Origin: a virus
DNA length: 27,376 bases
Reading direction: 5' to 3' (one strand)
IMG/VR virus record: IMGVR_UViG_3300043420_000192
Span: 1 to 27,376 of that record
Shown: positions 2,504-22,491 of the stretch, one piece after another
Position numbering within the stretch: position 1 is the stretch's first letter
How the letters are laid out: every line of letters starts with the position of its first letter
The notes under the pieces: generated by a model
Seen by the model: the letters and a program-made list of their open reading frames with translations, nothing else
Databases searched by the model: none
Told to the model about the DNA's origin: nothing
Made by a program: the position numbers and the translations under genes

Positions 2504-4986
2504 TGGCAGCAATCACACAACAAATCTCTACATTTCTTGGTGGTATCAGCACTCAAGAAGATAATAAAAAATCACCTGGTCAAGTATCTGAGATTCTAAA
2601 TGGATACCCAGACCCTACCTTTGGTCTTGTCAAAAGGAATGGTAGTCAATTTCTCACTACACTTACTAATGCTGCTGGGTTAGAGAATGGCTATTGGTTT
2701 AATATCAATAGATCTGACACTGAAAGCTACATCGGAGTTATCACTAATTCTGGTGATATTAGAATCTGGAACATTATTCCAACTTTAAGTGGAAGTCAGT
2801 ATGTTTGGACTGAGGCTACAATTAATGGTAAAAGTAATGCAGATGTAATTAGTTATCTATCGTCTGCAAATGCAGTTAATAGCTTTCACAATGTATCTTT
2901 TCTGGATACAACATACTTAATTAATAAGACAAAGACTGTGGCTATGCAAGCTAAGTCTGAGTATAAATTAGGTGTGCGTGGTACAGTTATCGTATCCTTT
3001 ATCGAGCAAGGTGATTATACAATCTACCTTAATGGTACTGCCTGTACCCATGCTATCGCATCTAACGATACACTTGATCATGTATTGACTACATTATCAA
3101 CTGCAATTACTACTGCCACAACTGGATTTACTGTTGAAAAATATGGTAGCTCTTTGGAGATTACTCGTGCAGATAACGTACCATTTACTCTTGAAGTAAA
3201 AGCTGGAGATAGTGGTCTTGCCCTTACATCTTATCAAGATGAAGTTACTAGTGCAGGTCGGTTATCCTCTACCACTGTAAATGGTCGTCGTGTAAAGATC
3301 ATTAACTCTATTGATGAACGTAATTCTTATTATGTTCAATTTAAAGGTGTTAGTGGTTCTACTACTGAATCTGGTACTGGCTACTGGCAAGAGTCTCTTG
3401 GATGGGATGATGAGGGTGGTACTAATAAACTAGCTAGTGCTGGCTTTGATGCCACTACTATGCCGTATAAGCTATTCAATAATAGCCTTAATACTTTTAC
3501 CATTTCTCAGGAAACTTGGGCGCCAAGAGCTAGTGGTAATGACTATGGTAATCCTCTCCCATCTTTTGTTGGAAAGTCAATTAAATACGGTGTACTGAAT
3601 AGTAACCGTTTAGTTTTCCTATCTCCAGACTCAGTTGTTATGAGTGTGGCTAAAGACTTTCCTAACTTCTTCTACACCAGTGCTCAGACTATTACAGCTG
3701 CTGATCCTGTAGATGTAGATGTGTCTAGCTTTAGGGTTGGTACACTGCACTCTGCTGTATCACGTCCTCAAGGTCTTGTACTATTTAGTCAGTTTGAACA
3801 GTTCCTACTTTATTCTGAAAGTGGTAACCTGACTCCATTTGACTCTATTATCCGTACTATCGGTCAGTATGAAAGTGCTCCTGATGTATCTGCAAGGGAC
3901 ATGGGTAACTATGTCAGCTTTATTTCACGTACTCCTCTGTATTCTAAGATCTTTGGAATGCAACCTAGAGGTGGTAGTGAGACACCAACAACTGTAGATA
4001 TTAGTCAAGTAATTGCTGAATATCTACCTGTTGATATTGTTAAGCTGACTACTGATCCACAGAATTCACTGCTTGCCGCATATAGTGATACATCTAAATG
4101 TATCTACTTGTATAAGTTTTATAGCAATGGTGAGCAACAGTTGATGCAGGCTTGGTTCAAGTGGGATCTACCTGGATCAATTCAATATATGGAAATCATT
4201 CAGAACGTCCTATTCTTTGTAACTAAGAATGGAAGTGACTATCAGCTTAGTATGGTAAGCATGGTGCAAACACCTTACCCAGTTAGTAGTCAATTCCCGA
4301 CGTTTGGTAACATTACGATGCCTACTGTTCGTCTTGATTTCCTGTACCCTGCTTCTAATGCTGGCACCATTACTTATGATGCTAACACTAAACGCTCCAC
4401 TTTACCTACTCTTTACACGCATATCTCAGGTAAAAGACCTGTAGCTGTAACGATTCCTGCTGTTACTACATCAGCTCCATCTGGTATTAATGAATTAACT
4501 AAACTATTCATTTCCCCAGAATTGGATGATCCTGATGCTGGTTTTGTTATGGACATTGATCCTACTGACTGGACTATTCCTGGTGATTGGGAAGGTCAAG
4601 AGAACAAACTAGCTATTGGTTATGAGTACACGTATGAGGTAACACTACCTACTTACTTCTATACTCCTGGTAATCAACCTAAGGATTGGTCAGCTAATCT
4701 TACAATTGCTAGGATGAAATTTAACATGGGTCTTAGTGGTCTTGTTAATTTCTATTTGAAAAAGTATGGATCAGGTGAGTGGTTGTCTACACAATCAGTA
4801 CAAGAAGCAGATCGTTACATTGAAACTAATGCACCACTTGTTCAAAATACTGTAGTAACTGTGCCTATTCATCAACGAAACACAAGTTTCCAACTTAAAA
4901 TTAATAGTACTTCACCGTTCCCAGTTACTCTCAATAGTATGACATGGGAAGGCAATTACTCACCTCGTTATTATAGGAGGGCGTAG
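2503..4986 (+). CDS. Tail tubular protein B (T7 gp12-like), tail nozzle
   Basis: The 827-residue product (T7 gp12: 794) is a large, beta-rich, Asn/Ser/Thr-rich protein. It begins MAAITQQISTFLGGISTQED, close to the usual opening of tubular protein B (Q.i....GGIS.Q). It forms the nozzle of the short tail, to which fibres attach. ATG 2503 is chosen because it overlaps the previous stop (TAATG) and has AGAGG about 5 bases upstream; GTG at 2497 in the same frame would only add two residues. Motifs such as LFSQFEQFLLYS (about residues 426-437) fit the family. It is followed two bases later by the gp14-like gene. Confidence 0.92.
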   Translation: MAAITQQISTFLGGISTQEDNKKSPGQVSEILNGYPDPTFGLVKRNGSQFLTTLTNAAGLENGYWFNINRSDTESYIGVITNSGDIRIWNIIPTLSGSQYVWTEATINGKSNADVISYLSSANAVNSFHNVSFLDTTYLINKTKTVAMQAKSEYKLGVRGTVIVSFIEQGDYTIYLNGTACTHAIASNDTLDHVLTTLSTAITTATTGFTVEKYGSSLEITRADNVPFTLEVKAGDSGLALTSYQDEVTSAGRLSSTTVNGRRVKIINSIDERNSYYVQFKGVSGSTTESGTGYWQESLGWDDEGGTNKLASAGFDATTMPYKLFNNSLNTFTISQETWAPRASGNDYGNPLPSFVGKSIKYGVLNSNRLVFLSPDSVVMSVAKDFPNFFYTSAQTITAADPVDVDVSSFRVGTLHSAVSRPQGLVLFSQFEQFLLYSESGNLTPFDSIIRTIGQYESAPDVSARDMGNYVSFISRTPLYSKIFGMQPRGGSETPTTVDISQVIAEYLPVDIVKLTTDPQNSLLAAYSDTSKCIYLYKFYSNGEQQLMQAWFKWDLPGSIQYMEIIQNVLFFVTKNGSDYQLSMVSMVQTPYPVSSQFPTFGNITMPTVRLDFLYPASNAGTITYDANTKRSTLPTLYTHISGKRPVAVTIPAVTTSAPSGINELTKLFISPELDDPDAGFVMDIDPTDWTIPGDWEGQENKLAIGYEYTYEVTLPTYFYTPGNQPKDWSANLTIARMKFNMGLSGLVNFYLKKYGSGEWLSTQSVQEADRYIETNAPLVQNTVVTVPIHQRNTSFQLKINSTSPFPVTLNSMTWEGNYSPRYYRRA

Positions 4987-4988
4987 GT

Positions 4989-6161
4989 ATGGCATTAACT
5001 GGGTTGGAGATGTTTGCCATTCAAGGTGGAGCATCTCTTCTAAATGGTTTATTTAGCGGATTTGGTCAGAGCCAACAAAACGCTGCAGCTCAAAAACAAG
5101 CTGATGCTATCAATAAAGCAAATATGCAGAATTGGAAGTATCAGAACCGTGAAATGCGTCGTAAGTTTAGGTACGACACAAACAGCGTTAAGATTCAGCG
5201 GGACAATATTGAGCAAGAGTTAGCATATAATGATGAGACTGCCCGTAAGTCTTGGAATTATCAGATGCAGATTCGTGCATTTGATATTGAACAACGCAAT
5301 CGTGACTTTGAGCAGCGTAAGTTAACTGCTGGCCAACAACTAGGCTTTAACGGTATTGCCTATAACTTTGCCTTGCAAGATGCTGATAGATGGTTGCAAG
5401 AGCAGAACATTGCTATGGACTTTGAGGAGAAGTCTACAATGTTGGACTTTAGGTATAATCAGCTTGGAGAAGCTTTGAAATTTCAAGAGGCTGATGCTGC
5501 CAGACAACAGACTCGTGCAATGGCTCAAATTGAACAGCAAAAGACTTATGTTAGTGCGCTTAAATCTAAAGGTGAAGCACAAGCTCGTGGTGGCATGGGT
5601 GTTACTGCTGAGAAGGCTGCTACAGCATCTATTGCTGAAGCTGCTTTAGATATGTCAGCTATTATTCAACAAGTCTTTAATGCCGATCAAAACTTTGGTT
5701 TAACTTCTTCTCAAATTACTGCTAATTTAGAACAGATTAACGATAAGTTCTATTTAGATAGGGCTCAAATTGCAGCTTCTCGTGTAAGTGCATCTACACA
5801 GGCAATAGCACTTAAGGCTAATGCATTTATGAATAAGTTCCAAGCGGATATGAATGCTATTACTAGTATCGGCTTGCCTCCTAGCATACCTCCTACTCCT
5901 CCTGCACCTGAACCACTGCCGCGCCCCACATTACAAGATCCATTTAAACCTCGTCCTCTGCCTAAACCTGTGGCATCAGTACCTAACTTGGCTAGCCCAA
6001 TCTTGGCAGGACTTAGTACAGCTATTCCTGGTATTGCACAAGCGGCTGTTAATGCTTACGCACCTAGACCTACTACTAATAATAACTACATAACACAACT
6101 TCAAGCTGGTGGTAATGCTGCTGGCCAAGCAATCTTCGGTGGAGTACAACGTAGCAGCTAA
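4989..6161 (+). CDS. Internal virion protein (T7 gp14-like)
   Basis: The position between tubular protein B and the gp15-like gene and the overall sequence character fit the gp14 class of ejected core proteins. The start follows AGGAGG by about 7 bases. The first 20 residues are hydrophobic and Gly-rich (LEMFAIQGGASLLNGLFSGFG), suiting membrane insertion in the outer envelope. Residues about 30-190 are strongly charged and Gln-rich, predicted as long coiled-coil helices. Around residues 195-205 lies ARGGMGVTAEKAA, typical of this class. A proline-rich linker (about 297-330) leads to a Gly/Ala/Asn-rich tail. At 390 residues it is about twice the T7 protein (196), as in other cyanophages by general knowledge. 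Confidence 0.8.
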   Translation: MALTGLEMFAIQGGASLLNGLFSGFGQSQQNAAAQKQADAINKANMQNWKYQNREMRRKFRYDTNSVKIQRDNIEQELAYNDETARKSWNYQMQIRAFDIEQRNRDFEQRKLTAGQQLGFNGIAYNFALQDADRWLQEQNIAMDFEEKSTMLDFRYNQLGEALKFQEADAARQQTRAMAQIEQQKTYVSALKSKGEAQARGGMGVTAEKAATASIAEAALDMSAIIQQVFNADQNFGLTSSQITANLEQINDKFYLDRAQIAASRVSASTQAIALKANAFMNKFQADMNAITSIGLPPSIPPTPPAPEPLPRPTLQDPFKPRPLPKPVASVPNLASPILAGLSTAIPGIAQAAVNAYAPRPTTNNNYITQLQAGGNAAGQAIFGGVQRSS

Positions 6162-6171
6162 GAGATGATTT

Positions 6172-9100
6172 ATGGCACAATTTAGAGGTTATGCACAGCC
6201 TCGGGGGTTTTCCCCTATTGAGGCACCTGATGTTGCTAGTAAGACCCGTGAACGTGGTCGGCAACAATTACAGGATATGGAACGTGCTGCCCAATTTGAC
6301 CTTCAACAACGTGATCGTATGGCTAGTGCTATGCGGTACGTTAATGAAGTGGAAGCACGAAACCGTGATAAAATCTTTCAGGCAGATCAAGATAATCGTG
6401 ATCGCGTCCAAAAACAAATCCAGAATAACTACAGAACTACTATTGAGAATGCTGTAAATGAAAATAAAGGTGAAATTGATACTCTCACTTCTCTAGCTAA
6501 GTTCTCGACTACAGCGTTTGATACAGTAGTTAAAATTAATCAAAACATTGAGGAAGGTAAGAAACTAGCTGTACATCAAGCTATCTTCAACACTGGTGTC
6601 TCCAATAAGCAATTAATGGAGCTACATAAACTTGGTGTAAATGCTAACAGTCAAAGCCTTGCTGAGAATTCTAGGATTGTAGAACTATCCAATGATCTCA
6701 ATGTACCAATTCAAGATCTTGTATTCCTTGCTAAGCATAGTAATGCTAAGTATTGGTCTACATCAACTGCAGTACTAGGCAACATGGCTGGGTCATATCA
6801 GACCCACTTTGATAATAACATCAACACTAAATTTAAAATTAAAGATAAAGAACTTTCTCTTCAAGAGGCTCGTGATTCTTTAGATGGAGAAAGTGAGGAA
6901 GCTATCAAGTCTAGGATTCTCAGTGAGTTCATCCGTGAAAATCTTATTAGGCAAAATGTAGATCCATCAGCGGCTGCTCAATTTGTACATCCTACTATTA
7001 GAGCTGTACATGCTGAGTGGGCTAAAGAAGGGTCAACATTAAAAAGGAAGATTATTGCTAGCAATGCTCAAGACGCTATCAATAATACTTATTCACAAGC
7101 CTTTAGTACTGGTGGTGCGGCTTCTGTACTTGCAATGATTCAGCAGCAACCTGCTGGTTTTGCTAGATCTAAAGCCTGGGTAGATTTGTCTACCTATCTA
7201 CAAACTGAAGCTCTGACTGATAATTGGAGATGGGCTCAGCAGCAACTTGAGACTTTAGATTCACTTAAAGTTGACTGGGATGGTAGAGAGGTTACATTTA
7301 AAGAGCGTTTTGAGAAAACAGCTTGGTACATTGCTACCAAACAAGCATTTTTAGATGCTCGTGTACGGGATCAAAGAAAACACCAGATTAATGAAAACGA
7401 TGATCTGATTAGACAGCAAGAGTGGACGGACTTTGCTATTGAAGAACTTCAGAAAAACCCTGATGTTGTAATGGCAGATGTTAATGGAGCTATTGAGGCA
7501 TGGAAAGTACAATTTCCAGGTAAACCTATTCCATCTGAATTGGAAACTTTTAAACTAAACAATACTGTTGACGGTAAGTTTATTGCAGCTAAAATAAAGC
7601 AAGTCCAATCTCTTGATGATGCTGGTGTTTTAACATTAGAGATGATTACTGAAATGGGACTACCTAATAGTGTAGTACCTTCTGATGTTAGAGCACGTGC
7701 TATTTCACGTAGCAAGGCACAGCAAGAAGACCCTCGTTTTGATGGGATGAAAGAAACCCTCATGGATCTTGCTAAATCTCCACGTCCAGTTCAGGCTAAA
7801 GTTCAAGGTCAATATGACCCTTCTGTACGCCTAATGGGTTCTCACCTAATGCGTCAATTCTTGGCTGAATTTAACAAACTAGAGTTGATTAGTCCTGGTG
7901 ATCCAAGGAACTCCGATAATGCTTATAGCATTGTTCGTGATAGATTTTACGCTAACGCAAAAGATCCTAAATTCTTTGTTACTCGTGGTAGCGGTCTTGG
8001 TGGCTATTCTCAGTTTAATCGCCCTGCTGACGTTGATAAAAATGCAGCTGCTAGAGGTGCTCAAATTCAACGCACTATCGGCACGCTTGGTGCTAAAGCG
8101 CTGACTACTCCTGGAGCTATTTTTTCAGTACCTGAACTAGAGGCGTATAAGCAAGATGCGATGAAACCTAACTTTGCTCCTGATGGTAGGATTAAAGGAA
8201 TTGCAAATCAACTTCGGATGAATCCTATAGCAGTGCTAGATACCTTAATGCAAAGTAATGGTCTAGGTAAACTTCCTGTTCCTCAATTCTTTACTCAATT
8301 TAGGCAGCAAGCGGACCCAGCTCTTTTGCGTAAACTTGAGGCGTATCAAACTGAACAGATTTCAGTAAGAACCATGGGTTCTACTGGTACCTATAATATT
8401 GATTTAGTTCCCAATAAATTTGGATATAACATTGGTCAACTAATTCTAGAAACTGCTACTAAGTATAAACTTTCACCTGGTTTGTTGGCTGGAATGCTTC
8501 ATCATGAAAGTATTGGATTTAAAGACACTGTATTGACTGGAGAACAACCTAGCCCTTCTGGAGCGCTTGGTATTGCTCAACTTAAACCTGAAACTGCTGC
8601 TGAAATGGGTGTTGATCCTTTGAACATCCCTCAAGCAATTGACGGTGCTGCTAGGTATCTAATAAAGATGCTTAATCACCCCAATAATCCTCAAAAAAGC
8701 ATGAATAGGGCTATCCAGATGTATCATGATGGTCCTACAGGTATCCTATCTCCATCGTCAAATCCTGGATACTTTAATTCTGTGATGAGTCAGGCTTACA
8801 AATACGGTCACCTGCAATCACTGCAGAGTCGTGCAACACTTCGACCTGGTTTTATTCAACGTACTAGTAGTTATGATACTGGCTACGGGTGGCAACCTGT
8901 GTCCATGCAGGATGAACAAGGTAGGCCAGTTATTATGAGTAGAGATGCTGCTACAGCATTCGCTCAAATGGTACAAGCTTCTGGAGGTGCTGTAAAAGGT
9001 TCTGACATCGCTAGTTCTCAACGTACTAAAGAGAAGAACATTCAAGCTAAAGGTTCTCCAACTTCATTGCACCTGCATGGAGAAGCCATTGATATACATG

Positions 9101-9204
9101 GTACGTCTAAAAAATGGATGATTCAAAACGGACCTAAATTTGGTTGGTACCTTGTTGATTATCCTGGCAGTCATGGTGGACATTTTGAATATCGTGGTAA
9201 TTAA
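6172..9204 (+). CDS. Internal virion protein (gp15 position) with lytic transglycosylase and M15-peptidase-like domains
   Basis: The N-terminal 700 residues are charged and helical (RERGRQQLQDMERAAQFDLQ), as in ejected core proteins of T7 gp15 type. Two wall-hydrolase domains follow. Residues about 755-860 look like a soluble lytic transglycosylase: ES at 779-780 (candidate catalytic Glu779), then GALGIAQL at 797-804. Residues about 905-1010 match the M15/VanY peptidase pattern: SLHLHGEAID at 965-974 fits SxHxxGxAxD exactly (Zn ligands His967 and Asp974), and HGGHFEYRG at 1001-1009 supplies a third ligand, probably His1004. It probably cuts both glycan and peptide bonds of peptidoglycan as DNA is ejected. 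T7 keeps its transglycosylase in gp16 instead. Start ATG 6172 lies 10 bases after the gp14-like gene. Confidence 0.87.
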   Translation: MAQFRGYAQPRGFSPIEAPDVASKTRERGRQQLQDMERAAQFDLQQRDRMASAMRYVNEVEARNRDKIFQADQDNRDRVQKQIQNNYRTTIENAVNENKGEIDTLTSLAKFSTTAFDTVVKINQNIEEGKKLAVHQAIFNTGVSNKQLMELHKLGVNANSQSLAENSRIVELSNDLNVPIQDLVFLAKHSNAKYWSTSTAVLGNMAGSYQTHFDNNINTKFKIKDKELSLQEARDSLDGESEEAIKSRILSEFIRENLIRQNVDPSAAAQFVHPTIRAVHAEWAKEGSTLKRKIIASNAQDAINNTYSQAFSTGGAASVLAMIQQQPAGFARSKAWVDLSTYLQTEALTDNWRWAQQQLETLDSLKVDWDGREVTFKERFEKTAWYIATKQAFLDARVRDQRKHQINENDDLIRQQEWTDFAIEELQKNPDVVMADVNGAIEAWKVQFPGKPIPSELETFKLNNTVDGKFIAAKIKQVQSLDDAGVLTLEMITEMGLPNSVVPSDVRARAISRSKAQQEDPRFDGMKETLMDLAKSPRPVQAKVQGQYDPSVRLMGSHLMRQFLAEFNKLELISPGDPRNSDNAYSIVRDRFYANAKDPKFFVTRGSGLGGYSQFNRPADVDKNAAARGAQIQRTIGTLGAKALTTPGAIFSVPELEAYKQDAMKPNFAPDGRIKGIANQLRMNPIAVLDTLMQSNGLGKLPVPQFFTQFRQQADPALLRKLEAYQTEQISVRTMGSTGTYNIDLVPNKFGYNIGQLILETATKYKLSPGLLAGMLHHESIGFKDTVLTGEQPSPSGALGIAQLKPETAAEMGVDPLNIPQAIDGAARYLIKMLNHPNNPQKSMNRAIQMYHDGPTGILSPSSNPGYFNSVMSQAYKYGHLQSLQSRATLRPGFIQRTSSYDTGYGWQPVSMQDEQGRPVIMSRDAATAFAQMVQASGGAVKGSDIASSQRTKEKNIQAKGSPTSLHLHGEAIDIHGTSKKWMIQNGPKFGWYLVDYPGSHGGHFEYRGN

Positions 9205-13149: not shown

Positions 13150-13181
13150 TGCTCCACCGCATTTACCTACTCTATTAAGTG

Positions 13182-15929
13182 ATGGCTATTACTCAATTTG
13201 AATACACTGGAACTGGAGCACAAACCTTTTTCCCGTTCCCTGTAGGGTTTGAATATATTGATACTTCAGAAATCATTGTAGAAGTAGATAGGACAGTTGT
13301 CTCTTCTAGTACTTATACAGTTGATAATACAGGTGTTACTTTTAATACAGCACCTGCTGATGGTCTTCGTATTCTAATCACACGTCAAACAGATATTGAC
13401 GAAGCTCGTGCTGTTTTTTACTCAAGTTCAGCAATTCGAGCTGTAGATCTAAATACTAACTTCGATCAATCTCGCTTCTCTGTACAAGAATGGCGTGATC
13501 AGAAGGCTCCTCTTTACAACGCTGTCTTCAAAGATCGCATTGATATGGATGGTAACCCCATCATCAATGTAGAAGATCCTACTAATGCACAGGATGCTGC
13601 TACCAAGAACTACGTAGACACTACAACGTGGAACGTAACTGATGAGACGCTACAAAGTGGTGAGGCTTGGGTTGGTAGTAATGATTATATTGCTACTACC
13701 CAATCTATTGATCAACGCATTGATGCCAAGATCGACACTGCTATCACCAGTGATATTGCAGGAGCTGATGGTATCACCGTAATTGATGATGGTGACGGTA
13801 CTATTACTCTTGGTCTTGCTGATGACTCTATTGACTTTGACAAGATCAAAGGTGTAGATATCATCACTGAGTCTGAACAGGATGCTGGTAGTCCTGCTCC
13901 ATCTGATAGCAACCTCTTTACTGGTGCTGCTTCATCTAAGCGGTTTGATACTATTGTATCTGACTCTACTCCTGTTGGTAGTGATTGGGAAGTAGGTAAG
14001 ACTTGGCTGCAACAGGTTCCTGATAACACTCTGTCTATTTGGAATGGTAGCAACTGGATTGGTGTTGCTTCTGGTGGTACATTCCTTACACAGCCTACTG
14101 TTATCTACGTTGACTCTGTTAACGGTAATGATAGCTTTGATGGTCACCGTATCATCAACCCAAAGAAGACTATCAAGAACGCTGTAGCCTCTGCTAATGC
14201 TGGTGATATTGTCTATGTGGTTCCTGGTGTTTATCAGGAAGTACTGCCGATTGATATTACTGTAAGTAACCTGTCTATTGTTGGTCAGTCTATCCGTAGC
14301 TGCTTCATTCACCCCACTGCTGCTACTGAGACTCAGACAATGTTCCGCTGTAATAGCGGTACGTACATCACTGGATTTACCTTTGCTGGTTTGAAAGCAA
14401 CTGGTACACGTGGTGATCACCCAGTAGATGATGATCCGGTATATGGTCTACCTGCTAACCAAGGTTGGGTGGCTGGGTTCTATCCCGGTTGTATCGTTAA
14501 GAAGAGTCCGTATATCCAGAACTGTACTAACTTTGCAGACTCTGGTATCAATAACAACAGCTTCGATCCTAATAACTTTGCTGGTACTGGTGGTGACCTA
14601 ACTTCTGGTCCTACTGGTGGTGGTATTTTCGTTGATGGTTCGTTGCCTGATTCATCTAGCCCACTCCGTAGCTTTGTTGTTGATAGCTTTACTCAGATCT
14701 GCCTTGATGGTCCTGGTTGTCTGGTAGCTAATAATGGCTATGCACAGCTTGTTAGCTTCTTTGGTACGTTCTGTCATTACCACACCAAAGCATTGAGTGG
14801 TGGTCAAGTTAACCTTACCAACAGCACAACTGACTTTGGTCGTTATGGTTTGATTGCTGATGGTAAGAGTACTACTGCTATCTTTACTGCAACAGCTAAT
14901 GGTGCAGCAAGTGCAGGTGACATTACCTTTGCTATTAACCAGCCGGTTGATAATTGGTTTGGTTCTGCTACACGTCCACTAGACAATATGATGGTACAGA
15001 TCGGTAGTGATATCTATCCGATCCTGTCTTCTAGTGCTAATGGTCTTGGTTGGAACGTAACTATTAGTAACCCCAATCCAGCTAACCGTGCTGAGAACCT
15101 TGGTCTTGATAATAGTCATGCTAACGGTGCTGCTGTAAGTTTCTTCCTTAGGTCTCTTGTTAGTACCTCTGGTCATACGTTTGAGTATGCTGGTAGTGGT
15201 ACTGACTACACAGCACTACCTGAGAATGGTGGTGTTGCTGATGAACTTAAGCAGACAGTTAACCTGAATGAGGGTCGTGTTTGGCAGTCTAGTACTGACC
15301 AGAACGGTAAGTTTAAGGTTGGTGATACGTTTGAAGTTGATCAGAAGACTGGCTTTGTTACTATTGATCCCCAGTCGTATTCCACTAATCTTGTATCAGA
15401 TCTGAGTCCACAACTTGGTGGTGACTTGGATGTACTGGATAAGAAGATTACGACAACACTAAGCAATGGTGATGTTGTCATTACTCCTAACGGTAGTGGC
15501 CAAATCAAGTTGACAAATTCTCAACTTGTTACTAACTTTGACGTTCAAACCTATGCGATCAATACATCTACCACTGATGGAGATATTGATCTAGATGCTA
15601 ACGGTAGTGGTCTGATTAAAGTTACTGAGTATAATCTTAGTCAAGTTCCTATTGTTACTCAACATGATGTAGGTGAGGATCTCAATGAGATTCCTTTGAA
15701 CTACATGCTTGGTGAAGTTGCTTATCAAAACAAAGATCTTGTCTCTATTGATAGCCTTTACCTTGAAACTGGAACTACTGTATCTGCCTTACCTACTGGT
15801 CCTGTTGGACGTGTATTCCGAGTAACTGATGCCAATAGTCCAAGTGTTGGTTCTACTGTTACTGGCGGTGGAGCGGCTAATGCACTTGTCTGGTACAACG
15901 GTACAAACTGGACTGTAATTGGAGTATAA
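13182..15929 (+). CDS. Tail fibre protein (T7 gp17-like N-terminus) with beta-helix
   Basis: Residues 1-110 match the T7 tail fibre N-terminal domain that docks on the tail: FEYTGTGAQTFFPFPVGFEY, the YTVDNTGVTFNTAPADG block and IRAVDLNTNFDQS. A phage fibre motif NAQDAATKNYVD follows (about 136-147). From about residue 305 the pattern IYVDSVNGNDSFDG...PKKTIKNA...GDIVYVVPGVYQE is characteristic of right-handed beta-helix proteins. RVWQSSTDQNGKFKVGDTF (about 698) and two GDV/GDI..ANGSG blocks near 760-805 resemble motifs of cyanophage structural fibres. ATG 13182 is preferred over the adjoining GTG 13179. It likely forms trimeric fibres for host contact. The next gene, another adhesin, follows by three bases. 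Confidence 0.9.
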   Translation: MAITQFEYTGTGAQTFFPFPVGFEYIDTSEIIVEVDRTVVSSSTYTVDNTGVTFNTAPADGLRILITRQTDIDEARAVFYSSSAIRAVDLNTNFDQSRFSVQEWRDQKAPLYNAVFKDRIDMDGNPIINVEDPTNAQDAATKNYVDTTTWNVTDETLQSGEAWVGSNDYIATTQSIDQRIDAKIDTAITSDIAGADGITVIDDGDGTITLGLADDSIDFDKIKGVDIITESEQDAGSPAPSDSNLFTGAASSKRFDTIVSDSTPVGSDWEVGKTWLQQVPDNTLSIWNGSNWIGVASGGTFLTQPTVIYVDSVNGNDSFDGHRIINPKKTIKNAVASANAGDIVYVVPGVYQEVLPIDITVSNLSIVGQSIRSCFIHPTAATETQTMFRCNSGTYITGFTFAGLKATGTRGDHPVDDDPVYGLPANQGWVAGFYPGCIVKKSPYIQNCTNFADSGINNNSFDPNNFAGTGGDLTSGPTGGGIFVDGSLPDSSSPLRSFVVDSFTQICLDGPGCLVANNGYAQLVSFFGTFCHYHTKALSGGQVNLTNSTTDFGRYGLIADGKSTTAIFTATANGAASAGDITFAINQPVDNWFGSATRPLDNMMVQIGSDIYPILSSSANGLGWNVTISNPNPANRAENLGLDNSHANGAAVSFFLRSLVSTSGHTFEYAGSGTDYTALPENGGVADELKQTVNLNEGRVWQSSTDQNGKFKVGDTFEVDQKTGFVTIDPQSYSTNLVSDLSPQLGGDLDVLDKKITTTLSNGDVVITPNGSGQIKLTNSQLVTNFDVQTYAINTSTTDGDIDLDANGSGLIKVTEYNLSQVPIVTQHDVGEDLNEIPLNYMLGEVAYQNKDLVSIDSLYLETGTTVSALPTGPVGRVFRVTDANSPSVGSTVTGGGAANALVWYNGTNWTVIGV

Positions 15930-15932
15930 ATT

Positions 15933-18900
15933 ATGACTATCAAACATCTTTACCCTGACTCACGACCTACACTTGACCTGAAGTTTGCCAAGGATAAAAC
16001 ATTAGATCCACGCATCACCTTTACTCGTGCATCATCTGGTACGTATGTAGATGAGAATGGTGTCATCCAAAGTGCTGCAAGTGGTGTGGCACGATTTGAC
16101 CATGATCCAGTGACGAATGAGAGTCTTGGATTGTTGGTGGAGGAGGCGAGGACGAATCTGATACCACGTAGTGAAGAACTAAGCGTAGGGTGGACTGCTG
16201 TTAACGCCACTGCTATTGATTACTCCGCATTGTCTCCTGAAAACGAGTTCAATGGAGCTTCTTTGACGGAGGACTCTGCTTCATCAAGCCATGCTGTTAC
16301 TAGGAGAATCACCGGGATAACGCATGACGCTACATATACGGCAAGCGTTTATTTAAAAGCAAACGGTAGATCTACTGCTCAATTTTGGATTGACTATGCC
16401 TATACGCCGCCTAGCTATATGAACATTGATCTAAGCAATGGTACTTATACAGCACTTGGTGGAACGGCTACTACGTCTCTTGTTTCTTACGGTAATGGCT
16501 GGTATAGAGCTTCAATAAGTCTTACAAACACTGCTCCTGGTAATTTTATTGATATTAAGGTATTTTTGACAGACGCCTCCTTCAACTCAACTTATCAAGG
16601 AGATGGAACCTCTGGCATTTACATCTGGGGAGCCCAACTAGAAGCCGGAACCTTCCCAACCTCCTACATCCCAACCCCTGCAATCTTCACCAGTCGCGCC
16701 TCTACTGCCACGTACTACGACGCTAACGGTATTATCCAGACTGCTGCTATTGATGTAGCACGTGATAATGCTTATTTCCCTGATGAGAATGGCGTGATGC
16801 AACCGGCGGGGTTGTTGTTGGAGGCGGCAGGGACGAATTTAATGTCTTATAGTGAAGATTTTTCCACTGGCTGGAGTACAATTAGAGCTACCATCACCGC
16901 TGGATCTGGCGTTTCGCCTGATGGAACCAATAGTGCTAGTTTATTTGAGTCAACAACTACAAGCACAGCATCTATTTCGCAAACAATTTCAACAAGTGGC
17001 AATGCCACTCTTAGCGTGTACGCCAAGGCTGGGACATCTTCTCAGTTAATTGTTTATCTAAATGGAGCTACGGCTTGGTTTGATCTTCTTGCGGGTACAG
17101 TTGGCACAACAAATGATGGCACGGCTTCAGTAATTAAGATCGCCAACGGTTGGTACCGTTGCTCTTTAACCTCCACACTCGCCACAACTCAAGTGAAACG
17201 TTTTTATGTGGGTGGAGCTGGGGACGGTGACTATAGCAACACCATAGGAGCAAACCTACTTGTCTGGGGCGCCCAACTAGAAGAATCCCCCTACCCCACC
17301 TCCTACATCCCCACCAGTGGATCAACGGTAACTCGTGCTGCTGATATCTCCACCAGTTCTCAAGTGCAACGGACGGCGGACATTGTAACTGTACCAAACA
17401 CTGGTTATTACGACATTTATGATTACACCATCATTAACCAACCGTTTGGTGTGGCTGGTGGTTCTAACACACTAAATATTGTTGGACCGTACGCTAAACG
17501 TACAACAGTATTCCCCGATGAACTAACTCAACCAATTATCCGTAGTCTTGCTGGACAAACTGATGAGTTTTGGAGATGGCGTGTAACTGGTGGTAGTTTC
17601 GGTCTTCCTAACTTTACCACTGATGGACAGGTAACGGTTGACTGGGGTGATGGAACGGTTGAGACTTTGACGACTAGTGATCATACATTTACTGATGGTA
17701 AGACGTATCACGAGATTGGGTTTAGGTTGGATAGTGGGACTTATTTCCGCCCATCCATCAGTAACAATGCAAGTCACGATACAAAGGTAGTGGCGGTTGG
17801 TCCAGCTCCAGAAAGTATGAAACTAAATGCTACTAACGCTTTTTATGGATGCAGCTCTCTTAAAGCGTTTGATGCAACAGTTGATACGTCTAGTATAATT
17901 AACTTTCTCAATGCTTGGCAAGAATGCTCTAGCCTTACAAGCTTCCCGTTAATTGATACTTCTAGTGGGATTGATTTTACCAGCGCCTGGCTTAACTGCA
18001 CCAGCCTTACTAGCTTCCCATTAATTGATACTTCTAGTGGGATTAGCTTTCAATCTGCTTGGCGCAACTGCTCCAGCCTTACTAGCTTCCCGTTAATTGA
18101 TACGTCTAGTGGGACTAACTTTGTCAATGCTTGGTACGGCTGCAACAGTCTCACAAGCTTCCCGTTGATTGATACTTCAAGTGGAACTAACTTTAATGGT
18201 ACTTGGACAACCTGCTCCAGCCTCACAAGCTTCCCATTAATTGATACTTCTAGTGGGACAAACTTTAGTAGTGCTTGGACAACCTGCTCCAGCCTTACAA
18301 GCTTCCCGTTAATTAATACTTCTAGTGGGACTAACTTCCAAAACGCCTGGTACAACTGCAACAGCCTTACTAGCTTCCCATTAATTGACACGTCTAGTGG
18401 GACTAGCTTTAGCAGTGCATGGTACAACTGCAACAGCCTTACTAGCTTCCCGTTAATTGATACGTCTAGTGGGACTAACTTTAATACTACTTGGCGTGGT
18501 TGCTCCAGCCTCACTAGCTTCCCATTGATTGACACTTCTAGTGGGACTAACTTTGCCTATGCTTGGTACTTGTGCTCCAGCCTCACTAGCTTCCCATTAA
18601 TTGATACGTCTAGTGGGACTAACTTTAATTCCGCCTGGCGCTCCTGCTTCAGTCTCACTAGTTTCCCGTTGCTTGATACTTCTAGTGGAACAAACTTCAC
18701 TTTAGCCTGGTACAACTGCTCCAGCCTTACTAGCTTCCCGTTGATTGATACGTCTAGTGGAACAACCTTCAACCAAGCTTGGCAAAACTGCTCCAGTCTC
18801 ACTAGTTTCCCCTCCAACTTCTTCGATTCTTGGACTGGTACTCCTGCCAATGATTGCTTTGTCAACACTTGGTTAGGTTGCTCTTCACTCACCGCCACAT

Positions 18901-19073
18901 CCGTCGAAAACATCCTTAACAGTATCGACACCTCCGGTCAATCCGCTCCTGCCTCTGGTGTAGACATCACCATTGATTATAACGCTGGTTCCGGTACACC
19001 TAACATCTCTACTGCTGTCACTAATCTTAAGTCCCGTGGCTGGACTATTACTCTTAATGGAGTTGCACAATGA
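15933..19073 (+). CDS. Second tail adhesin: duplicated lectin-like modules plus 12 BspA-like repeats
   Basis: The 1046-residue product lies three bases after the tail fibre gene, with GGAG 8 bases before its ATG. Residues about 30-255 and 255-470 are two related modules (each with RASxxTYxDxNGxIQ, GLLxEAxxTNL and WGAQLEx..PTSYIPT), of the carbohydrate-binding beta-sandwich type often found on phage tails. Around residue 565 lies VDWGDGTVE, the phrase seen in PKD-like/BspA surface proteins. Residues 671-958 are twelve 24-residue repeats of consensus FPLIDTSSGTNFxxAWxxCSSLTS, related to BspA/DUF285 (surface-protein 26-residue) leucine-rich solenoids. A C-terminal cap follows. It most likely is a receptor-binding protein or fibre tip. 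Domain assignments are by motif; the receptor is unknown. Confidence 0.82.
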   Translation: MTIKHLYPDSRPTLDLKFAKDKTLDPRITFTRASSGTYVDENGVIQSAASGVARFDHDPVTNESLGLLVEEARTNLIPRSEELSVGWTAVNATAIDYSALSPENEFNGASLTEDSASSSHAVTRRITGITHDATYTASVYLKANGRSTAQFWIDYAYTPPSYMNIDLSNGTYTALGGTATTSLVSYGNGWYRASISLTNTAPGNFIDIKVFLTDASFNSTYQGDGTSGIYIWGAQLEAGTFPTSYIPTPAIFTSRASTATYYDANGIIQTAAIDVARDNAYFPDENGVMQPAGLLLEAAGTNLMSYSEDFSTGWSTIRATITAGSGVSPDGTNSASLFESTTTSTASISQTISTSGNATLSVYAKAGTSSQLIVYLNGATAWFDLLAGTVGTTNDGTASVIKIANGWYRCSLTSTLATTQVKRFYVGGAGDGDYSNTIGANLLVWGAQLEESPYPTSYIPTSGSTVTRAADISTSSQVQRTADIVTVPNTGYYDIYDYTIINQPFGVAGGSNTLNIVGPYAKRTTVFPDELTQPIIRSLAGQTDEFWRWRVTGGSFGLPNFTTDGQVTVDWGDGTVETLTTSDHTFTDGKTYHEIGFRLDSGTYFRPSISNNASHDTKVVAVGPAPESMKLNATNAFYGCSSLKAFDATVDTSSIINFLNAWQECSSLTSFPLIDTSSGIDFTSAWLNCTSLTSFPLIDTSSGISFQSAWRNCSSLTSFPLIDTSSGTNFVNAWYGCNSLTSFPLIDTSSGTNFNGTWTTCSSLTSFPLIDTSSGTNFSSAWTTCSSLTSFPLINTSSGTNFQNAWYNCNSLTSFPLIDTSSGTSFSSAWYNCNSLTSFPLIDTSSGTNFNTTWRGCSSLTSFPLIDTSSGTNFAYAWYLCSSLTSFPLIDTSSGTNFNSAWRSCFSLTSFPLLDTSSGTNFTLAWYNCSSLTSFPLIDTSSGTTFNQAWQNCSSLTSFPSNFFDSWTGTPANDCFVNTWLGCSSLTATSVENILNSIDTSGQSAPASGVDITIDYNAGSGTPNISTAVTNLKSRGWTITLNGVAQ
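16026..17345 (+). repeat. Tandem duplication of a lectin-like module inside the second adhesin
   Basis: Module 1 runs from about 16026 to 16694 and module 2 from about 16695 to 17345. Similarity is visible in protein and partly in DNA; the module ends (16627-16675 and 17267-17315) share GCCCAACTAGAAG and CCTCCTACATCCC. These ends use C-ending codons (CCC, TCC, ACC), unlike the AT-leaning neighbours, hinting that the module came from elsewhere before or during duplication. Boundaries are approximate. Confidence 0.6.
17943..18806 (+). repeat. Twelve tandem 72-bp repeats coding BspA-like 24-residue units
   Basis: The array is exactly 12 x 72 bases, in frame, each unit beginning at the TTC of FPLIDTSSG. 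Degenerate copies flank it (from about 17840 and to about 18890). Framework bases are almost constant, while the codons for two residues after NF and two residues after W change from unit to unit. Synonymous choices (TTCCCG or TTCCCA, ATTGATACT or ATTGATACG) are shuffled between units, as expected from recombination among repeats. Confidence 0.92.
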
Positions 19074-21186: not shown

Positions 21187-22491
21187 ATGGCTCCTCGTAA
21201 ACAACTTAGACCGAAACCCGAAGGCTACAAACCCTCTGGTAGAAAATTTAATATGCTAGAGCAGACGCCTGGTGGTGAGGAATTGTTGTTTGGACATCCA
21301 GGTAGCGCTGAATACCGAAAAGTTTACAACAGAGCAGCTAGTCTTTTTGATGCTGAAGGTCACCATGTTGTAGATTTAGCGTATATTGATCAATTACTCT
21401 ACAACGCTGGATTTACATCAGGCGCTTCTGGTACAGAAGATTATAGCGAAATTCGTAATTACATTATTGAAGAAGTTAGGAAAAAGGGTGTTGATTTAGG
21501 TAATGTTCCAGAAAACATTGTACCTCTTAGTCAACGTAAAACAATTAAAGGTGTTGAAAAAACAGGCATGGCTCATAAATGGGTACATGACTTGTATAAT
21601 ATGATTCCTGAAGATTCACCAGAAAAACTTCGGTCTTTGACTGCAGACCAGTTAGTTGATTACATTGTTGATCGTGGTAGAACCAGAAAACAGTTAGTAA
21701 TTGACGCAATGGTTCATAAAGTTGATGCTTTATACTCTGAATACCCTAAATTACGTGATAAACCTGTTAAAGAAATTCAATCTTGGATTAGAAAAAACAA
21801 ACAGATTTGGGGTCAACTAGGAGACCGTTCTTTTAAAGAAGCTGTAGGTATTAAATTACAACAGCCTGAAGTTCCTGGACAAGCAAGGGGTCGTGTACCT
21901 TTTCCTCGTGCAGATGTTGAAGAATTGATGCTTGGTACTACTAAAGGTTTTATGTCAATAGACCCTTTAGGTGCCGCTGTTACTCACGCTACTAATCTTA
22001 TTAAAAAGAATATTGGGGGAAGTTTATTGGGTGCTGGTTACTCATTAACTAGTCCCGATGTACAAGCTGCTGTTGAATCGGGTGATGTACAAGCTGCAGC
22101 TATAGAACTAGGTAAAGATATTTTATCTGGTGCTGCCATTGAACAGGGTGCTAAATTTTTAGCTCAAGGTGGTGCAATGAAATTTGTACCACAAGCTATA
22201 CAGCGTGTTGCTCAATTTGCAGCTCCCGCTATGTCAGTAGCTGGCCCTGTGTCTTTAGCAGCTACTGTTGGTGGTAGTCAAGATGTAAAAGTTCAAGAAC
22301 AAAAGTTTGAACAATATGCACAAACATTACCCCCACAACAAGCTGCTGAAATAAGGCAACGTCGTCAAGAATCTTTAGAAGAACAAAGTAAACCTTTAAT
22401 TGACGGTGATCAATTACTTAAGTCACTTACTAACGAATTAAAGTTCATTGGTGGTCAAGTTAGGCTTGGTAAGATCCCGTATTTTAATTAA
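21187..22491 (+). CDS. 434-residue protein with possible GHH/HNH-like N-terminal motif and Gly/Ala-rich C-terminal part
   Basis: No family is firmly recognised. The N-terminal part has a spacing reminiscent of GHH-type HNH nucleases: GHHVVDL with His59-His60, then PENIVPLS with Asn110, then AHKWVH with His130 and His134. A basic start (MAPRKQLRPKPEGYKPSGRK) fits DNA contact. Residues about 240-385 are different: Gly/Ala-rich, partly hydrophobic (GGSLLGAGYSLT, AAPAMSVAGPVSLAATVGG), with a duplicated DVQAA phrase, resembling ejected or membrane-active virion proteins. A charged, Gln-rich helix follows. It could be a nuclease, a cargo protein packed in the head, or both. A terminator follows, so it ends the lysis-packaging transcription unit. 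Confidence 0.72.
   Translation: MAPRKQLRPKPEGYKPSGRKFNMLEQTPGGEELLFGHPGSAEYRKVYNRAASLFDAEGHHVVDLAYIDQLLYNAGFTSGASGTEDYSEIRNYIIEEVRKKGVDLGNVPENIVPLSQRKTIKGVEKTGMAHKWVHDLYNMIPEDSPEKLRSLTADQLVDYIVDRGRTRKQLVIDAMVHKVDALYSEYPKLRDKPVKEIQSWIRKNKQIWGQLGDRSFKEAVGIKLQQPEVPGQARGRVPFPRADVEELMLGTTKGFMSIDPLGAAVTHATNLIKKNIGGSLLGAGYSLTSPDVQAAVESGDVQAAAIELGKDILSGAAIEQGAKFLAQGGAMKFVPQAIQRVAQFAAPAMSVAGPVSLAATVGGSQDVKVQEQKFEQYAQTLPPQQAAEIRQRRQESLEEQSKPLIDGDQLLKSLTNELKFIGGQVRLGKIPYFN

Follow-up and report, generated by a model that had tools for sequence, protein, structure and literature searches.

The array gene and its setting

The window (the whole stretch of viral DNA analysed here, 27,376 nt) derives from a T7-like, S-CBP4-like cyanopodovirus, and it is 85% identical to Synechococcus phage S-CBP4 where the two align, over 46% of the window. 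Directly 3' of a tail-fibre gene (13179-15929) lies a gene for a repeat-containing protein (15933-19073), in a slot that holds an unrelated fibre in S-CBP4. The features are as follows.

13179..15929, + strand: upstream tail-fibre gene, a possible partner; tail-fibre N-terminal domain, with PHROG tail-fibre matches at residues 1-189
15933..19073, + strand: array-bearing virion protein gene, 1046 aa; matches tail-protein and unknown-function PHROGs (phrog_5939, phrog_34853)
16005..17363, + strand: two copies of the GTA head-spike-fibre domain, residues ~28-250 and 295-477 (NCBIfam NF048003, E 2.3e-79, two stretches)
17469..17858, + strand: putative PKD-like linker preceding the array, with a VDWGDGT motif; conserved among relatives (alignment)
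17859..17933, + strand: divergent first repeat, 25 aa
17934..18797, + strand: twelve exact 24-aa units, LTSFPLIDTSSGTNFxxAWxxCSS, with variable columns 14, 16, 17, 20, 21 and 23
18798..19070, + strand: degenerate last repeat and conserved C-terminal cap (ENILNSIDTSGQ...LKSRGWTITLNG), nearly invariant in relatives (alignment)

The protein passes the curated cut-off of 36 for GTA_spike_fiber (NF048003) with 266.1 bits in two stretches, and its N-terminal half matches PDB entries 6tb9 (E 3.5e-33) and 9b45 (E 3.1e-11). The linker at 17469-17858 is called PKD-like only by analogy with S-CBWM1 and S-SKS1. Elsewhere in the window, an internal virion protein-like ORF (6172-9204) matches transglycosylase/endolysin-like PHROGs at residues 750-1009, and a 434-aa ORF with no PHROG match (21187-22491) is flanked by an HNH endonuclease gene and an endonuclease VII-like gene; the S-CBP4 genes at the latter position differ in size.

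Residues 668-955 comprise 12 units of 24 residues without indels, and TRF recovers the array independently (17912-18811, period 72, 12.5 copies). An earlier note on this DNA had described twelve in-frame 24-residue units in which variability is confined to fixed positions, the two residues after NF and the two before C. The units are present at 17934-18797 (17943-18806 in the phase of that note), with every residue pair that it listed and with TS/LN, QS/RN and SS/YN in addition, and the confinement is borne out in that columns 16, 17, 20 and 21 hold 28 of the 43 departures from consensus, a number reached in any best four columns by none of 200,000 random placements. The note's four variable residues per turn stand as the four main columns, but not as the total, which is about six since columns 14 and 23 of the array also vary.

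Fold, repeat class and distribution

AlphaFold models predict a solenoid both for the 534-residue C-terminal part (pLDDT 80, pTM 0.74) and for seven units modelled with a 44-sequence alignment (pLDDT 84, pTM 0.82). Global TM scores from Foldseek were low, and rmsd-based VIA alignments were therefore used instead; with VIA-align the model matches Treponema pallidum TpLRR (6mlx) with a Z of 16.5 and an rmsd of 2.6 over 162 of 168 residues, followed among solved structures by 4h09 (Z 15.8) and 4fs7 (Z 15.6). The BspA-like solenoid that the earlier note had assumed is supported by these models and by the match to 6mlx, and the array is predicted to be a BspA/TpLRR-type leucine-rich-repeat solenoid of the DUF285/PARCEL sort. 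With the BspA/TpLRR-type proteins (4fs7, 6mlx) it would share the fold (rmsd ~2.6 over seven units) and an AFxxC-like AWxxC motif. Relative to their 23-residue consensus, CxxLxxIxLPxxLxxIgxxAFxxC, it matches CxxLxxF and AWxxC but has a period of 24 and differs in the IxLP..L..I part; unlike theirs, the units of the window are nearly identical to one another, and the variable stripe is sharp as a result.

PARCEL repeats (DUF285 PF03382 / TIGR02167) were described as having conserved hydrophobic and variable hydrophilic positions, with the choice between selection and neutrality at the variable positions left undecided (Roske et al., 2010; PMC2996958). Tandem units of about 25 residues, a hydrophobic framework, variable hydrophilic residues, modular flanks and a strong marine presence are all shared with the array, whereas a period of 24 residues and the W and P of the framework are not. 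No Pfam family and no TIGR02167 match was found for the window protein, although two array relatives, S-CBWM1 (26.7) and L088 (33.4), exceed the DUF285 cut-off of 25. Dyad symmetry was likewise absent from the unit DNA, the consensus unit being no more palindromic than its shuffles in a shuffling test, which is a different tool from the MEME used by the PARCEL authors. Long open frames run antisense to the array (18050-18535 and 18557-18931, - strand; 161 and 124 aa); such frames have been reported for PARCEL regions, and here they probably arise as a side effect of the repeat. Many phage proteins bear BspA-family names, and one jumbo phage paper mentions a PARCEL protein (PMC7765460).

The variable columns are best read as exposed, because polar, charged and aromatic residues are all tolerated there, in contrast to the near constancy of F4, F15, W19 and C22. 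In the models the DSSP ladders fall at columns 7-8 and 13-16, and comparison with BspA proteins and with plant RPP1 points to differing registers, so that the variable columns may face the concave or the convex side. Since a fixed column in a solenoid lines up turn after turn, these columns would form a continuous stripe.

While the earlier note had regarded such an array as unusual on a T7-like tail, a scan of viral contigs found 317 stretches that encode repeats of this kind. Few cultured phages (27 records) carry close arrays, and the hosts of arrays are phages of different kinds: the podovirus of the window, S-SKS1, S-CBWM1 and a contig (L007) with short-tail-fibre-type genes. In a Psychrobacter genome an array gene lies between phage baseplate and tail/portal genes, in what looks like a prophage. 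A terminase like that of the window was present in only two of 22 array contigs, many of them fragments, so the module is not restricted to T7-like phages.

Diversity and probable selection at the variable columns

From the best 80 of the 317 stretches, together with other loci, we extracted 69 distinct arrays (588 units), and the same six columns are the most variable across them. The entropy of columns 16, 17, 20, 21, 14 and 23 is 2.1-3.5 bits as against 0.02-0.20 bits for W19, F4, C22, P5 and F15, a contrast in which framework constancy is overstated, as arrays were fetched and scored by framework-rich patterns, although the identity of the variable columns is unaffected. Unit by unit, the residues were found not to be fixed among relatives, in keeping with what the earlier note had expected of a variable surface.

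The average within-array pN is 0.57 for the four main columns, against a pS of 0.40 for the framework, values that are near saturation and, gene conversion being possible, are rough estimates rather than a codon-model test. The difference per array, pN(variable) minus pS(framework), is 0.164 (bootstrap 95% CI 0.133-0.195) and is positive in 59 of 64 arrays, although homogenization of the framework by gene conversion could depress pS and inflate this contrast. Unit pairs with zero synonymous difference in the framework (128 pairs from 29 arrays) have a variable pN of 0.40 and a framework pN of 0.026, figures that are illustrative only, as the bin was itself selected on pS. In L068, framework pS is 0.01 and variable pN is 0.46, the framework being nearly identical in nucleotides, with changes at as many as three bases in the variable codons; the array of the window (framework pN 0.022, variable pN 0.63, framework pS 0.47) is less extreme. 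Relative to flanking sequence, the variable columns are enriched in Tyr (4.0-fold), Asn (3.3-fold), Arg (2.8-fold) and Gln (1.9-fold), whereas Val, Ile, Ala and Thr are scarce there, the first two reaching only 0.2 times their level in the flanks; this composition is binder-like. The statistics support the view that the stripe is under diversifying selection.

Phages P12024S and P12024L, both isolated on one host, provide a natural comparison, being identical over much of the 6 kb around the array. Their arrays differ by one unit more or less, and in the alignable units replacements occur in seven of 12 variable codons compared with eight of 112 other codons (Fisher P 5e-5), the codons having been grouped by eye from the alignment. 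The two phages diverge strongly again around a peptidase M15 gene (L103/L104, ~3750-4750), most flanks being identical. Exchange of modules is evident closer to the window. One contig (L005) is 99.99% identical to it over 7.6 kb, and a second from the same metagenome as that contig (L004) carries the array of the window nucleotide for nucleotide with a different N-terminal part, diverging upstream of ~17280; array and N-terminal modules thus recombine independently. Block duplications of several units are seen in L013 and L022. Shared unit cassettes were rejected, every 18-nt variable segment of the array in the window being absent from the other arrays among the 68 compared.

Proposed function and alternative readings

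We propose, with a probability of roughly two-thirds, that the product of the gene is a modular adhesin of the virion, in which a solenoid binds the receptor through an exposed stripe shaped by diversifying selection, the arrays being exchanged and changing length as modules. The BspA/TpLRR (DUF285/PARCEL) solenoid would be borne by two beta-domains of the GTA-spike type and a PKD-like linker, W19, F4, F15, C22 and L1 would build its conserved core, and columns 14, 16, 17, 20, 21 and 23 would form the stripe that touches a molecule of the host surface, probably a polysaccharide or an outer-membrane component. The stripe would be diversified by selection, as the statistics indicate, with array length shifting through unit duplication or loss and N-terminal modules and arrays being traded by recombination, both of which are seen directly in relatives, and a reverse-transcriptase mutator is seemingly uninvolved. 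To explain the change, nothing beyond ordinary mutation, recombination between repeats and selection is needed.

An unlikely alternative is that the solenoid is a stalk or spacer whose exposed columns drift since nothing depends on them. Exposed positions of repeat proteins are usually variable, and the PARCEL authors left neutral drift possible (PMC2996958), but drift alone should not push pN above pS, as is seen in nearly all arrays, nor does it sit well with so strongly skewed a composition or with the near fixation across arrays of T2, S3, T9 and S10, which are presumably exposed too. Less probable again is an artefact of concerted evolution, in which the framework loses its synonymous variation to frequent gene conversion and codon preference and the excess pN reflects old diversity at a few sites. 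The nearly nucleotide-identical framework runs of L068 and L042 and the block duplications noted above are what it would predict; conversion tracts would, however, span variable codons only bases away, so that diversity there still needs selection or new input, and the framework codons that adjoin variable ones (13, 15, 18, 22 and 24) keep a pS of 0.32 with a pN of 0.09. The P12024S/P12024L comparison, moreover, is orthologous rather than paralogous. Targeted hypermutation that rewrites the variable codons, for instance by a diversity-generating retroelement, could account for variable codons that differ at up to three bases in an unchanged framework, as in L068, but we consider it very improbable: with controls working, there were no RVT_1 matches in 43 array-bearing records (many of them fragments, the window itself being 27 kb), and third bases vary within the variable columns, unlike the adenine-only change expected of an AAC template. 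Such a retroelement was rejected as a candidate on both counts, the lack of a reverse transcriptase and the wrong mutation pattern.

Receptor binding and a tail location we infer for the array protein, and the location has a competitor that keeps host-surface binding: a fibre fixed to the head, as the RcGTA spike is, or a decoration of the capsid, which we regard as unlikely. The RcGTA head spike, as a tagged protein, binds encapsulated cells (PMC10218006). The window protein shares the N-terminal domain of this fibre (Rcc01080) and has it twice, which fits a surface polysaccharide as target and also allows a head location, although the match covers the N-terminal domains only and the repeat array has no counterpart there. 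In S-SKS1 the array gene (L105:3545-4606) stands among head genes, between those for capsid assembly and prohead protease and away from the tail fibres, and thus not all arrays need be tail adhesins. In the window, by contrast, the gene follows a tail fibre in the operon and takes the slot of another fibre in S-CBP4, and in Psychrobacter the array gene has baseplate and tail genes as its neighbours.

Repeats of this class, with their variable hydrophilic positions, were already published (PARCEL, 2010); we found no earlier report in the open-access literature of selection at fixed columns in phage BspA-type arrays. The PARCEL question of selection or drift becomes testable in phage arrays, and the evidence presented here speaks for selection. 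TAL-effector repeats and lamprey VLRs likewise combine a near-constant framework, variability at fixed columns and an evolving number of units, although their ligands are different and TAL effectors also have another fold. We know of no recognition code for the array repeats. Tentatively, and with more doubt than confidence, we suggest that a mode of recognition resembling that of TALEs or VLRs is common to many environmental phages: in a leucine-rich-repeat solenoid with a near-invariant framework, selection and recombination, with no retroelement involved, would diversify six codons per unit, and the composition and number of units would encode host-receptor specificity. Should host receptors indeed be bound by the stripe, phage-host specificity in aquatic viruses could be read from the arrays as from an evolvable record, and designers of binders would have a natural scaffold in them.

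Two further arrangements of the module were observed. A 1203-aa protein (L021:4777-8385) carries the whole of N-domain, array and cap module twice in tandem, with 28 units in total, and one 40.7-kb viral contig has three paralogous array genes (L088:244-1701, 5746-7182 and 7850-9070) of 13, 13 and 10 units.
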